Source: Ulota crispa
Taxonomy: Eukaryota; Streptophyta; Bryopsida; Orthotrichales; Orthotrichaceae
Assembly: GCA_963920765.1 (NCBI GenBank)
Contig: OY987249.1
Span: forward strand, 20,618,483 to 20,682,482
Direction: 5' to 3'
Length of the DNA: 64,000 nt
Shown: one piece after another, positions 35,501-63,264 of the stretch
Layout of the letters: each line of letters starts with the position of its first letter
How positions within the stretch are numbered: position 1 is the first letter of the stretch
Translations under genes and position numbers: made by a program
The notes under the pieces: generated by a model
The model's input: only the letters and a program-made list of their open reading frames with translations
The model's database searches: none
What the model was told of the DNA's origin: nothing

Positions 35501-37951
35501 TCAGGCAATGGCTTGCTGACTAGGCGACCAATGGAAGTATCAATCTTGTAAAGTTGTGAGGTCACAAAAAAATTCCAAATAGTCTGCACTATTCTATCCA
35601 AGAACTAAACTAGGTGTATGTTGAGGCTCATGCTTCAAGTGCCACTGCGGATGGATGTCTTGTAAAGTGAGACTAGCACCAGTTGGAAGCTTAGCAATCT
35701 CATGTGCACAAGGTAAATCCATGGTTGCGGATGATTGTAAGAAACACTTGTACTATTTTCTATCTCCTTCATCTCTTGCAGGTGGTTTTTGGCTCCTATC
35801 TTTTGCGTACCAAGTCATTTTGACTTGGAATTTTAGAGTAATGTTCACTTCAAAATTATAGACATTTAGCAATATTTTTGTTTTTTTTTAAAATTGTTTT
35901 GCTATTTTTGAACAATCCCTAAATAGGTGTCTACCTTGGCCATTCTGGGGTTTTTAGTACTATTTTGGGTCCAAAAAAGAGAATCTTGTGCCACAAATTA
36001 GGAAAGTTGTTTACTGTAGAGCATTACATGGATGTATAGAGGGGTTTTACAAAATTCTAAATTCCATGCAATGCACATTGTCTCAAAGTGGGCATCCAGT
36101 CTTCCTGCATTGGTGAAATAAAAAAAAATCCTCCAAAAACCACTTACATCAGGTGAAGCTACTCAAAGAGATAAAATATGATCATTTTTTGTTTTATTTT
36201 TTTGAATTATTTAACTATTTTCTATAAAAAAAAAGGAAATTGTCTTTTTATTAATAATTTTTGTCCCTCTGTTTTTGTGCATAAATTATAGATTTTTTTT
36301 TCTAGGTCTGAATTTTCATGAGTATGCTATTTTAAGTGTTTTACAAATTTTCCATATTTTATTTTATTTAAAAAAAATTATTTCAAAAGCTCATAGTATT
36401 ACCTAGTACTATCAGTTTTAAGGGTGTTTGAGACAAAATCGTGAAGTGTTTCTTACAACTACCCTTGCGCGGAATATCCTTGTGCATGGTGGTAATTTGC
36501 CTCCAATGGCCTTTTGTGCATTCATTTGCTCAATGCATAATGGGTAACATGCCCAAGCAGCTTGGAAAAGAGTTGAGTACGCAATGTATGTGGGACTGAG
36601 ATCAACTCATCTGCATGTGCGGTCTTTAATTCAGTAGCTTGATGGACCAATAGATGTGTGACGTGCTCTTGAAGAGCACGTAAATCACCTGAAGAAACCT
36701 GCACATAATGCTTGAGCATGGAGTGAGCACCTTCAACACAAGAAGTAGTTTTGGGTTGAAGGTGAGGGCATGTATTTGTCCATGCATTGACAAACTTTTG
36801 TTTGTGGGGAAGCCAAATCTGCTCAAGGTAAACCAAAAGCCCTCGAAGATCCTTAGCATTTGAAGAAAGTTTAGCCCACAGCTGATCAAATTTTTCTACC
36901 GTTGATACATGACAAATTTGTGACCACATTCTCATAAATTCTTCATGGCGCTTTCCATTGGAACATATTTCTTGACCTTGCTCAAAACATTTTGATTGTT
37001 GTGCCATAAACAAAAGAGGTGGCGGCAATTTGTAAAAAGAACAGCAATTGCCTTGCCGAGTGCTAAATTTGCATCCGTGACTAGCATTGCAAGAAAAGAG
37101 TGTTCAGTATAGAGTTTCTTCAGTTCTCTCAATGCCCAAAGATAGCCGCTTTGGTCCTCTTCCTGGAAAAAAGCAAATGCAACAAAAAATGTTGTGTTTT
37201 GGCCCGTTTGTCCTATAGTAGCCAATAGTGCTAATTGCAACCAATTTGTTTTGTAGGTGCAATCCATGATGAGCACAACGGCATACCGCAGAGCTAGCTT
37301 GATAGAATCGGGATGGGCAAAAAAGAGCCGCTGGACATTACCAGCCAAGCTACACACAATAGAGAATCAATACTTGCTATTCTTGAGCTCATCAAGCAAT
37401 GCCTGAATGGGTGAGTGTCTAGCTAGTAGTGCTTGTCACTGCTTAGCTTTCTCATTGTAAATTGTTCTAGCAATAACGTCTACTCTTGCGTCCTTAGTGT
37501 GGATGGTTGTTAGTGTTTGTCATGGTGCCACACCTGCAGAGGACTTTTTTGCGACACATTCTACCCCATATTTTGATAATTGTTGAGCCATTGGATGACC
37601 GCCCATGTTTGGTGAGGGCACATGATTATGCTCAATACACTTGGGCACCATTCTCCAAACACTATTGTAAACACGCCACACTTTCAACTTCCAAGAGTAG
37701 CCGATCAGTTGCGTACTAGTGTCACGTATTTGTTCCTCCTCAGGAACAGGTATGCGCTTTCTATATCGTCCACCATGGTCACAACCAAATTGAAGGCGGC
37801 CCCACTTGATGTTAGAACGTGCAATGACAACAACATAACCAGATGCAACACCAACAGCTTGAACATATGCAATTAGTGCCTCGCGACCCTCAAAAGTGCG
37901 CTGAAAATCAAGCTCCATGGTAACAAGGTCAAAGTCTACTGTTTTGATCAA
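35501..37951 (-). pseudogene. MULE transposase with FAR1/MuDR-like N-terminus, broken
   Basis: Reverse order: an N-terminal FAR1-like zinc-binding region (37951-37520: LQFGCDHGGRYRKR, MVPKCIEHNHVPS); a linker with DVIARTIYNEKAKQ, a TGA, then SPIQALLDEL (about 37500-37380); and the RNase-H-like core (37357-36932: LIMDCTYKTN with the first Asp, VTDANLALGKAI with the second, HLFCLWHNNQN). After a frameshift, 37028-36522 contains SCVEGAHSMLKHYV with the catalytic Glu. The C-terminal SWIM-type zinc finger starts KLPPCTRIFRA and finishes MDLPCAHEIAKL, but the two parts lie on either side of the 736-bp insertion at 35729-36464. At least two TGA stops and one frameshift abolish function. Confidence 0.85.
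35729..36464. mobile_element. 736-bp non-autonomous element with 4-bp target duplication, copy A (in the MULE transposase)
   Basis: Terminal inverted repeats: the right end reads inward GGGTAGTTGTAAGAAACACT and the left end GGATGATTGTAAGAAACACT. The 4-bp TTGC flanks both sides (35725-35728 and 36465-36468). Deleting the element and one TTGC joins the SWIM finger in frame. A homologous 734-bp copy lies at 62527-63260 with a different 4-bp duplication. Shared interior phrases include GAACATTACATGGAT-type sequence, CTCAAAGTGGGCATCCA and TTTACAAATTTTCCATATTTTA. No transposase inside. The superfamily is not identified. Confidence 0.85.
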
Positions 37952-44822: not shown

Positions 44823-47207
44823 ATGCAGGTTGTTAGCCGCCTTGGCAGTCCGCGGGCAATTCGATGGCGGAAAGGAGAGTTGATTGGGGCAGGTACGCTT
44901 AAGTGTTTTCCCGATTCTGAGCAATTGTGTTTACGTGGGGTCGTCCCTTCAAACATACGATAACAGACAATTATGTAGAAGAGATCTGACTTTGTTAGGG
45001 GCTTCACGACCCCTCAGCTGCCTTCCCTTTCGGCACTTCAATCTCTTATTTTAGCGACATGAACATTCTAGACATTTTATGTAGTGGCTTTACCCCAGAA
45101 TCTGTCAATCGCATCTTGCCAAATTTGTTTTGTGTTATTGGTCCCGCAGGATGGCATCTTCTGACCTAATTTGCAGTTAAAATGCTCTGAAGGATCGACA
45201 TGCTTCTGGTTTACTGATAGCTTGGAACAGATATATCTCGAACTCTCTTTGCTTACATTGTTGCGTACTATGACTTTTGCAGGCGCATATGGCCGAGTGT
45301 ACATGGGCCTGAATCTGGACTCTGGTGAGCTTATCGCAGTTAAGCAGGTGTGCATTGCGCAGAACAACGTCACCAAAGACAGGGCTCGATCGCATATCCG
45401 GGAGCTGGAGGAAGAGGTGAAGCTCCTCCAGAACCTCTCTCATCCCAACATTGTTCGCTACCTGGGCACTGCACGAGAGGAGGAAGCTCTGAACATCTTT
45501 CTGGAATTTGTTCCTGGAGGATCTATTGCCTCTCTCCTTGGCAAGTTTGGCTCGTTTACAGAGACAGTCATTCGAATGTATACCCGCCAACTGCTCCTGG
45601 GGCTGGAATATTTACACAGCAACCACATCATGCACCGGGACATCAAGGGTGCGAACATTCTAGTTGATAACAAGGGATGCATTAAGCTTGCTGATTTTGG
45701 TGCATCTAAGAAAGTCGTCGAGCTCGCTACAATTTCCGAAGCAAAATCCATGAAGGGGACTCCTTACTGGATGGCCCCTGAGGTCATTCGGCAGACTGGA
45801 CACAACTGGCAAGCTGATATGTGGAGTGTTGGATGTACCGTCATAGAGATGGCGACTGGCAAACCCCCGTGGAGTCAGCAGTTCCAAGAGGTTGCGGCTC
45901 TTTTCCACATCGGCACCACCAAGTCGCATCCTCCCATTCCTGAACATCTGTCCGCCGATGGAAAAGACTTTCTATTGAAATTGTTACAGAGAGAGCCCCG
46001 GTTGAGGCCGAGTGCTGCTGAGATGTTGAAGCACCCTTACGTACAGAATTACGAAATATACAATGGAGAAGAAGGTGGTGAAGGTCGTCAAGTACTGGAA
46101 GAGCATTTGCAGCCCACAAAAGATGGATGTAGTGTCAGAACGTCAATGTCTTTGCGAAATTCCTGGAGGGGTTCATTGAGACAGAATGGTGTGGGATCTT
46201 GGAGACCGGGTGGCACGTCTGTCAAAGACCTCTCCTTTTCTTTCAGGGATCCCGGAGCATCCTCCAAGAGATATGTGAGCATGAGCAGACCTGGCAACAC
46301 TTTTAGTGAGGATCTAAATTGTTCAGTGCGGTTGGACTCTCTAAGAATGGATTCTCTGAGGGATTCCGTGAGGCTAGATTCCATGAGGGATTCTGTGAGG
46401 TTGGACTCAGTCCGACAGGACACATGGAGCGAGAGTTTCAACCCTATTTCAGAGCCTTCATACGTAGATGGCAGAAAATTTCGGTTAAATTCGACAACAA
46501 ATGGTGGGTTTTCTGTAAGGCCTCGGACTGGGGATGTTTTGGAAAACCCTGGCATTGGAAGACAAGGTTTGGGTGAGAGAGGTTGGTCCTTACGACAAGA
46601 GGATGAAGACGAAGTCACGGAGAGTATGATTCGTGCATTTTTAGACGAGAAGGCCTTGGAGTTAAAGAAGCTGCAAACACCCCTGTATGAGGACTTTAAT
46701 GATCCGTTGAGGACCTTTGCAATTCAAGGGAACGGAACTACAGCGGGTACAGCAGAGAAGTTTGTTGCGCCTTTAAGTCCTGCTAGGGCTATGCAATCAA
46801 CAGCGAGTACAAGCAAGTCACCCAGCAAAGGAAATGTGAGTGGAAGGTCTGTGGGTATTCGCAGCAGCCAAGAGAGTGAAACCAGCGGGAGCTCTGACAG
46901 CCCAGGTGGATATGCAGCTCCTTCGACAAGTACCAACCACAATCCTGTCCTGGACACACCCTGCCCAAGGTTGAATGGAGTGGAAGGGCTGAATCATGAT
47001 CCTCAGCAGCCATTGCCCAGTCCTGATTTGAGCTCTAGTGAGCGTCAAAGACTGTGGAAAGAAGAACTTCAGCAGGAGCTTCAACTAAAGCGAGAAGAGA
47101 AACGTAAGCACTCTCAAAGGGTCGCCCCATCATCTCCGTCTCCGAACTCAAGAGCGCATCAACGGCCAGGTAGCAGTCGATTAGCATCTGTGTCACAAGT
47201 AGATTAA
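44823..47207 (+). CDS. NPK1/ANP-type MAP kinase kinase kinase, two coding exons, 664 aa
   Basis: Exon 1 is 44823-44892 and exon 2 is 45283-47207. Splicing completes the glycine loop GAGAYGRV (residues 22-29). The kinase domain (about 14-277) has Lys44 (AVK), HRDIKGAN (Asp143), DFG (Asp161) and GTPYWMAPE. The family-specific LNLDSGELIAVKQV and SLLGKFGSF identify the ANP/NPK1 clade. The tail has DEVTESMIRAFLDEKALELK then KLQTPLYEDF (about 464-497), conserved in ANPs, and a C-terminal basic helix LWKEELQQELQLKREEKRK. In angiosperms these kinases act with NACK kinesins in phragmoplast expansion and in oxidative-stress MAPK signalling. The frame is open back to a TGA at 44727; I chose the first in-frame ATG (A at -3), giving a short N-terminus. 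An upstream exon is possible. An Arg/Asp/Ser repeat sits at about residues 372-402. The gene is intact. Confidence 0.9.
44893..45282 (+). other. Intron in the MAPKKK gene, phase 1
   Basis: Starts GTACGC and ends in TATGACTTTTGCAG. It splits the glycine codon of GAGAYG in the ATP-binding loop. Removing it joins RWRKGELIGA to GAYGRVYMG in frame, as in the family. Confidence 0.92.
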
Positions 47208-61632: not shown

Positions 61633-62526
61633 TAAGGCTTTCACCACACATTGTTGAACCTATAGTGGAGTAGTGTATGTCACTTGCACAAGCAAATTCT
61701 ACCACTTGTCAATTGCTGAGTTGCCATGAGGCAGTGGAATTGGGACCATCCACTGCCACTAGGGGAACATATCCAAGCAATTTTAAGGTTAGTCTAGAGT
61801 CGCTAATAGGGACCCTATGAACTACAACTTTGTACATTAATATAAAATAATCAACAATACATTTTTTCACAATAATCACGTTACATAATAACTTGTTGAA
61901 AGGCTAACCCTGCGGATTTTTTTCCAAAATTTTCTGAAACCTTGAGGTATCCCAAACCCTTAAACGGTTGGGTATAGGTCTGTCTACTTTACACTGACAA
62001 GCTTAAATTATTAAAATTGCGACATGTTGGCCAAGTTATTCACGATCGCAAAAATTGAATAATAATAAAAAGAAATTCCACACTTCTGGACCTCGAGGCC
62101 CTAGCTTCGGTGTCAAAGGTCTAACCAGGTGCAAATTTGCTTTATTAAAAATCAAAACAGGGATGGCCCTTCAGTCCCGAAGGATCGGCTGGCAGCTTGA
62201 AAACATAAACCGATTTTTTTTGGTGCCAAGGCTTTGGAGCCAATGGCCCATAAATATGCAAAAGAACATGAACTAGAAAAAGATTTCTACCATTTCTCTT
62301 TATAAAAAATATTTGAGCAACTGTAGTAAAGAACAATTGTTTTTTCCTTTTCTTAAAAATTGTCTTTCAACCATTCTTATGCATTCTCTGCACCTTGCTT
62401 CGGTGCCGAAGTGCTGTGCTTTTGGGCATGAAGCAAATCGCATTACTAAATTTTAGCAATACTTAGCAATTAAATGAGATATCTTACCTTTTTCAGGGTT
62501 TGAGGATTTTTTTATACAGCTCATTA
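61633..62526. other. Gene-free stretch
   Basis: A somewhat GC-richer patch at about 62.08-62.23 kb opens a 73-codon ORF without a recognisable domain. The phrase CTTCGGTG(T/C)C recurs near 62.11 and 62.40 kb. No gene called. Confidence 0.4.
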
Positions 62527-63260
62527 GGGTAGTTGCAAGAAACATCTATTCTGCTTTCTGTCCCCTTGTTGCACAATGTGTGGTTTTAGGGGTGTATCTT
62601 TTGCTTACTAACTTCTCTTCACGTGAAAATTTAGAGGAAGATTCACATTGAAATTATTGACCTATTGTGTTTTTTTGGTTTTTTTTTTAAAATCATGCAC
62701 TAATTTTAAATGGATTCTGTTAATATGTCTACTTTGGTTGTTTTGTGGATTTTCAGTACTACATTGAGGCAAAATAAAGGAATTTGATGCCACAAATTTG
62801 GGGAGTTGTTCTTCGTTGAACATTACATGGATTTGCCAAGGGGTTTTAGAAAAATGTAAATTATATGCCCTCCACTTTCCCTCAAAGTGGGCATCCATAG
62901 GACAGGCATTAGGGTTTAGAAACAAACATTCTTGAAAAATTATATGCATCAGTCAATGCTCCTCACAGGGGACCAAATTGGAAATTTTTTAAATTTTTTT
63001 TGAATTATTTTACTATTTTCTAAAAAACAAGAAAGAAATTGGCTTTTTGTTGGTAATTTTGTTTTGTGCATAACTTTTAGAATAAATTTTTTTCAGGTTT
63101 GAACGTCCACAAGTATGTGATTTTAAAGGCTTTACAAATTTTCCATATTTTACTTTATTTATAAAAGAATAAAAAAAATCAAAAACTCATAGGTACTACG
63201 TAGTACTACCAGTTTGAAGGGTTTTGACACAAATCTATGAAGTGTTTTTTGCAACTACCC
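62527..63260. mobile_element. 734-bp non-autonomous element with 4-bp target duplication, copy B
   Basis: Ends GGGTAGTTGCAAGAAACATC and, read inward from the right, GGGTAGTTGCAAAAAACACT. ATTA flanks both sides (62523-62526 and 63261-63264). Homologous end to end with 35729-36464 in the same orientation. The only sizeable ORF (62949-62662, reverse) is unconserved. Confidence 0.85.
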
Positions 63261-63264
63261 ATTA

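Follow-up and report, generated by a model that had tools for sequence, protein, structure and literature searches.

A family of probable miniature inverted-repeat DNA transposons with 4-bp target duplications in the moss Ulota crispa

The target duplication made by a DNA transposon is 8-11 bp long in Mutator (MULE) and 5-8 bp long in hAT elements, and PIF/Harbinger, CACTA and Tc1/mariner elements leave a 3-bp or TA duplication. A fixed 4-bp duplication next to inverted termini is the trace of a DDE/D-type transposase that works with a 4-base stagger. Elements of the Sola superfamily leave 4-bp duplications, encode a DDD transposase and have terminal inverted repeats (TIRs) of 11-1124 bp; the section devoted to them in one source places them in the moss Physcomitrella and describes them as apparently infrequent among flowering plants (PMC10741241). 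The duplications of Sola2 are given as 4 bp and AT-rich in an excerpted account (PMC3627910), and Sola1 is tabulated for Physcomitrella and also for Capsicum in another (PMC9033089). Other described systems with duplications of this length are Ginger, with TG..CA termini and TIRs of 40-270 bp (in the corresponding section of PMC10741241), and Kolobok and piggyBac, for which the relevant part of a further source gives TTAA duplications (PMC9587614). A recent survey of plant miniature inverted-repeat elements (MITEs) deals mainly with five superfamilies (PMC12550479); to these, a review of MITEs in angiosperms adds Novosib, P and piggyBac (PMC10004981). Here, an element with a 4-bp duplication from the moss Ulota crispa was analyzed within a stretch of 64,000 nucleotides (the window) and compared to its relatives across the assembly, which has 157 contigs and totals 274.8 Mb.

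An insertion in a MULE and its empty sites

The preliminary description of this locus had placed a 736-bp insert, flanked by a 4-bp duplication, in the SWIM finger of a MULE transposase. The insert and both copies of TTGC were borne out (Table 1), as was the location in a MULE transposase. The SWIM label holds by position, and Pfam did not recognize a SWIM finger in the MULE stretch at the insertion site. The usual SWIM motif is CxC...CxH; at this position, five of the six MULE paralogs (frames examined) have CTG, CTR or CTE followed by LPC.HE. Of the terminal repeat quoted earlier, the right end proved to be correct and the left end was found instead to be the sequence listed in Table 1. The inverted termini of this copy share a perfect 15-bp core, TTGTAAGAAACACTT.

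Table 1. Positions in the window of the insertion, the interrupted MULE and a second copy of the family
Feature	Position	Strand	Details
Non-autonomous TIR element (probable MITE), main subfamily	35729..36464	+	736 bp
Left target duplication TTGC	35725..35728	.	single TTGC in empty site of L068
Right target duplication TTGC	36465..36468	.	single TTGC in empty site of L068
Left terminal inverted repeat GGATGATTGTAAGAAACACTT	35729..35749	+	family majority: GGGTGATTGCAAGAAACACTT
Right terminal inverted repeat GGGTAGTTGTAAGAAACACTT (inward reading)	36444..36464	-	
MULE coding side of join, TMDLPCAHEI	35697..35726	-	
MULE coding side of join, KLPPCTRIFR	36469..36498	-	
MULE transposase domain of interrupted host element	36989..37276	-	PF10551, E 6.6e-19, neighbouring ORF
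Second family copy, older subfamily	62527..63260	+	ATTA at 62523-62526 and 63261-63264

When the element and one TTGC are left out, the reverse strand reads ..GGKLPPCTRIFRATMDLPCAHEIAKLPTG.. and the frame across the join is KLPPCTRIFRATMDLPCAHEIAKLPTG; as had been claimed, the MULE frame is then continuous and free of stops at the join. With the insert kept in place, stops are present in all three reverse-strand frames. A genome search with the joined MULE flanks returned eight matches, two of them the halves at the locus and the other six elsewhere. These six other MULE copies (78-91% identity) are all contiguous across the insertion site. The closest paralog, L068, at 91% identity, agrees letter for letter around the site and has one TTGC there (CCATGGTTGCGCGG). 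The preliminary description had offered as a test of its proposal that related MULEs might carry the segment as an ordinary part of the transposase gene, and this the segment passed, since six contiguous paralogs rule it out as a regular part of a MULE. That the segment is an intron or spacer of the MULE gene, as an interruption with no other damage at the join could suggest, is thus scarcely credible, the more so as the segment and its termini are found at hundreds of other places. The interrupted MULE copy has also been damaged independently, with one base missing about 60-65 bp from the insert compared to all six paralogs and further stops beyond it. By these comparisons, and by those with independent copies of the element described below, the earlier claim of mobility and exact boundaries was confirmed: positions 35729-36464 are a real, exactly bounded insertion. 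A single insertion of the element would have landed in the MULE, which today is decayed.

Elsewhere in the window, a single-frame open reading frame of 680 amino acids (45165-47207, + strand) is MAPKKK-like by eye and contains a match to the protein kinase domain PF00069 (E 1.6e-69), and a fragment of DUF4218 (PF13960, E 5.5e-26), a CACTA-associated domain, is present at 44-418 on the - strand.

Family size, termini and target duplications

The preliminary description had called for a genome search for other copies, and a large family was found. The 21-bp terminus GGGTRRTTGYAAGAAACACTT has 842 exact occurrences in the genome, compared to none for the reversed pattern. A search with the element itself, in which 40 of 1734 first-look candidates were scored, detected at least 41 further copies that are 76-88% identical to it and mostly full length. 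Among copies picked by whole-length similarity, the terminus pattern is exact at 43 of 81 ends; extrapolation from this fraction and the 842 termini gives a family of about 790 elements. This number would rise with the inclusion of older subfamilies, whose ends are more decayed, and we estimate the family at roughly 800 or more copies. Copies are mostly 718-770 bp long, and 24 pairs of exact termini that face inward enclose lengths of 720-972 bp.

Of the copies used to derive a majority sequence, 39 of 41 are about 88-94% identical to it and two older ones are 81-82% identical; the 736-bp element of the window has 92% identity. The termini of the majority sequence are about 21 bp long (GGGTGATTGCAAGAAACACTT / GGGTAGTTGCAAGAAACACTT), and stops occur in all six of its frames. 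Within the main subfamily, most copies have ends that are unlike at bases 5-6, reading GGGTGATTG.. on the left and GGGTAGTTG.. on the right, and in some copies the GGGTGATTG form is present at both ends. At least three further groups were distinguished besides the main subfamily. The second copy in the window belongs to a separate group; it is 73% identical to the majority sequence of the main subfamily and up to 90% identical to its own kin, with 39 relatives at 84-90% identity among the matches listed for it. A second, older group (L056 and its kin) is mostly about 730 bp long, and a third, subfamily C, measures 824-846 bp in the two copies that were read wholly (L110 and L111).

Target duplications were scored in two overlapping sets of copies. 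The first consisted of the 42 copies found, window copy included, minus the 3'-truncated L045. The second, which contains the first, was enlarged to 66 copies with available flanks and with no more than six mismatches at either end; L045, L059 and L061, each with one end missing, lie outside it. As a control, left and right flanks of different copies were cross-paired. In the first set, an exact 4-bp duplication was detected in 24 of 41 copies and none of 5-12 bp, compared to 1.0% exact 4-bp matches on cross-pairing. In the enlarged set, the 4-bp duplication was exact in 39 of 66 copies and had one mismatch in 16, two in seven, three in two and four in two, compared to 1.2% exact and 11.8% within one mismatch in the control. 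No duplication of 5-10 bp was found among the 66 copies, and exact matches of 3 bp and 2 bp were seen in only three and six of them, respectively. Copies L110 (TTAG) and L111 (CTAT) of subfamily C have exact 4-bp duplications that add to this result. Thus the finding of another duplication length in other copies, which had been named in advance as grounds for rejection, did not occur; no length other than 4 bp stands out. The 39 exact duplications comprise 29 different words with 83% A+T, compared to 61% in the flanking bases beside them and 63% over twenty stretches of 10 kb, and their outer positions are A or T in 36 and 34 cases. TTAA accounts for three of the 39, in agreement with the earlier remark that the duplication shows no preference for this word. 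Flanks that differ at two or more of the four bases were observed in 11 of the 66 copies, four of these entries being from the dimers L035 and L088; in the remainder, the poor match may be due to decay or rearrangement.

Three pairs of copies, each on one target site, were observed (L088 76-1600, L089 88-1605 and L035 285-1785). With E for the element, L089 has the arrangement TTAT-E-TTAT-E-TTAT. By comparison, L088 is TGAA-E-TTCA-E-TGAA, with the outer word in reverse complement as its spacer, and L035 (+ strand) is AGCA-E-AATGCT-E-AGCA, where the end of the spacer, TGCT, is likewise the reverse complement of the outer word. We infer that such dimers would arise by a second insertion at the duplication of the first, and that in L088 and L035 the whole pair would then have been inverted in place, either by transposase or by recombination between the outer termini. 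When the genome was scanned for copies joined exactly end to end across 0-10 bp, only L035 (6 bp, seen on both strands) and C10:4557282 (10 bp) were detected; L088 and L089, which have mismatches in their inner ends, are not among these junctions.

Longer copies and coding capacity

We examined 100 of the 842 exact termini, all on contig C1, of which 48 fall in the 24 inward pairs, four in known copies and 48 were unpaired. From the unpaired termini 34 were sampled, 20 by reading them with 10 kb of sequence and 14 by a 131-bp read at the place expected for the partner. Of the 20, 15 were ordinary copies of 718-738 bp; the others were L056 (770 bp), L061 (one terminus lost), L055 (1039 bp, with a tandem expansion in its interior), L062 (4152 bp) and L059, which keeps only 26 bp of one end. 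Of the 14, 12 had a partner terminus with no more than three mismatches, L085 turned out to be a copy of 1003 bp (L090), and L077 has family DNA with no recognized end at the partner place. Copies L090 and L091 owe their length to inserts at whose borders the family sequence overlaps by 3 and 9 bases. Termini with A or T as the next base were tested by the same short read in 16 of 37 cases; 12 of the 16 have a partner with no more than four mismatches, and L093, L101, L102 and L103 have family DNA in or beside the stretch and no recognized partner.

Open frames were inspected in L059, L062, L110, L111 and the majority sequence, the other copies being too short for a transposase. Among the copies read, which represent a sample of the 842 termini, none codes for a transposase; looking for one in longer copies with the same termini, as had been suggested earlier, yielded none in them. 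Genome searches with an older subfamily, the second window copy and the end of subfamily C (40 candidates scored each) yielded only short copies or parts. L062, considered as a full-length element flanked by TTAA on both sides, was rejected; most of it is a nested repeat, about 3.3 kb long, that has the ends CACTAGTAGAAA..TTTCTACTAGTG and is flanked on each side by TTA. This CACTAGTAGAAA-ended repeat (about 6089-9397 of L062) includes a minisatellite of about 51 bp and is probably young and abundant, since a 1.9-kb part of the repeat recurs in at least 40 other copies with 94-98% identity. The sequence of L059 beyond the terminus had no second copy among 40 candidates scored. Positions 300-900 or so of L059 hold an abundant repeat of about 590 bp with copies 83-87% identical (40 of 3020 first-look candidates scored), perhaps a separate MITE family.

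Subfamily C has a reading frame of about 50-70 codons just inside one terminus, which occurs at some 120 places in the genome, including L062 5868-6017 (+), L110 59-268 (+) and L111 (-). In L110, an ATG lies about 39 bp from the element end and the frame begins MPLSKCNTGITTNIASTIQHLHNGNLKRPSHPKSIGNKARGMSFRKANY... At E<=10, two genome searches with this frame returned 126 and 125 matches, of which a few are weak or split and the longest open frame is 163 amino acids; in the second search, most matches contain a TAA. No gene was found by these searches. The frame (MPLSKCN..KANYK) had no Pfam match at E<=10, a longer version of it matched Pfam only at chance level (E 0.28), and a PDB search likewise gave only chance-level matches. 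The frame may be a remnant of the start of a transposase, or captured DNA.

Nature of the family and source of its transposase

Inverted termini with a duplication of fixed length, an empty site, high copy number at fairly uniform size, and a lack of coding capacity for transposase (subfamily C keeping its 50-70 codons) were each observed directly. Taken together, these features indicate that the family is a miniature non-autonomous DNA transposon (MITE) that moves by cut-and-paste with a 4-bp stagger, a reading to which we assign a probability of about 0.9. It shares with Stowaway, Tourist, hAT- and Mutator-type MITEs a short, non-coding and A+T-rich sequence, TIRs and hundreds of copies, and differs from them in its 4-bp duplication (2, 3, 8 or 9-10 bp in theirs); at 720-850 bp it is also long for a MITE. 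Since the element has no coding capacity, its enzyme must be supplied by another source. A transposase acting in trans would recognize the termini of about 21 bp, the element would go into a 4-bp staggered cut at an A+T-rich site, and repair of the stagger would yield the duplication. Movement at the DNA level and a transposase in trans are what the structure of the copies implies, and the autonomous partner may have been lost from the genome.

The superfamily had been left open among Sola, Ginger and Academ. Of these Sola fits best, because the length and A+T bias of the duplication match and Sola has been reported from moss. Like Sola1 and Sola2, the family has 4-bp A+T-rich duplications and short TIRs. 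Sola elements are mostly 2-9 kb long and encode a DDD transposase, whereas family copies are 0.7-0.85 kb and none of those read yielded a transposase, and the likeness is one of description rather than of terminal sequence. By the rule that Repbase applies to non-autonomous elements, duplication lengths must agree and one mismatch at most is allowed across the first 11 bases (PMC4455052). Membership in Sola, as assigned from the duplication and termini, is likely, and a Sola-type transposase is the most likely source, at about even odds.

It is possible, at considerably longer odds, that the duplications were made by a cut-and-paste superfamily undescribed in plants, or by a deviant lineage, other than Sola. 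The failure to recover a transposase from the copies read and the lack of a Pfam match (E<=10) for the subfamily C remnant are consistent with this; Sola, however, accounts for the length, the base bias and a plausible moss host with fewer assumptions. In its fullest form, an undescribed plant superfamily with GGGTGATTG/GGGTAGTTG termini, a W-rich 4-bp target, about 1000 miniature copies in several subfamilies and its own transposase gene lost from the genome, this proposal is slightly more doubtful still. A relative of piggyBac or Kolobok would share the 4-bp duplication, and the GG..CC ends of the family fit the RR..YY pattern described for Kolobok (PMC9587614), but strict TTAA forms are contradicted by the 29 different words and the rarity of TTAA among them, and this origin is improbable. 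More improbable again is an element of Ginger or GingerRoot type with a Gypsy-like integrase, for which duplications of 4-6 bp would be suitable (section on Ginger in PMC10741241); the family ends GGG..CCC with TIRs of about 15-21 bp, and Ginger is thus disfavoured by termini. A MULE, hAT, CACTA, PIF/Harbinger or Tc1/mariner MITE with an eroded duplication, although these five are the usual classes in plants (as covered in part by PMC12550479), is very hard to reconcile with the distribution of duplication lengths over the 66 copies.

The kind of element is already known: a MITE family of large size whose clear 4-bp duplications would be unusual in flowering plants. Among the papers listed in the literature searches, which do not extend to Repbase, no description of the family was found, and the two terminus strings were absent from the papers listed by the search that included them. 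A scheme that sorts MITEs into five superfamilies, as in the portion seen of PMC12550479, could miss or misfile a large family with 4-bp duplications. If the source is not Sola, the family would have been made by an undescribed transposase. If the Sola assignment is true, Sola-driven MITEs would have become numerous in the genome of a land plant, and the defined termini and empty sites could be used to find the transposase.
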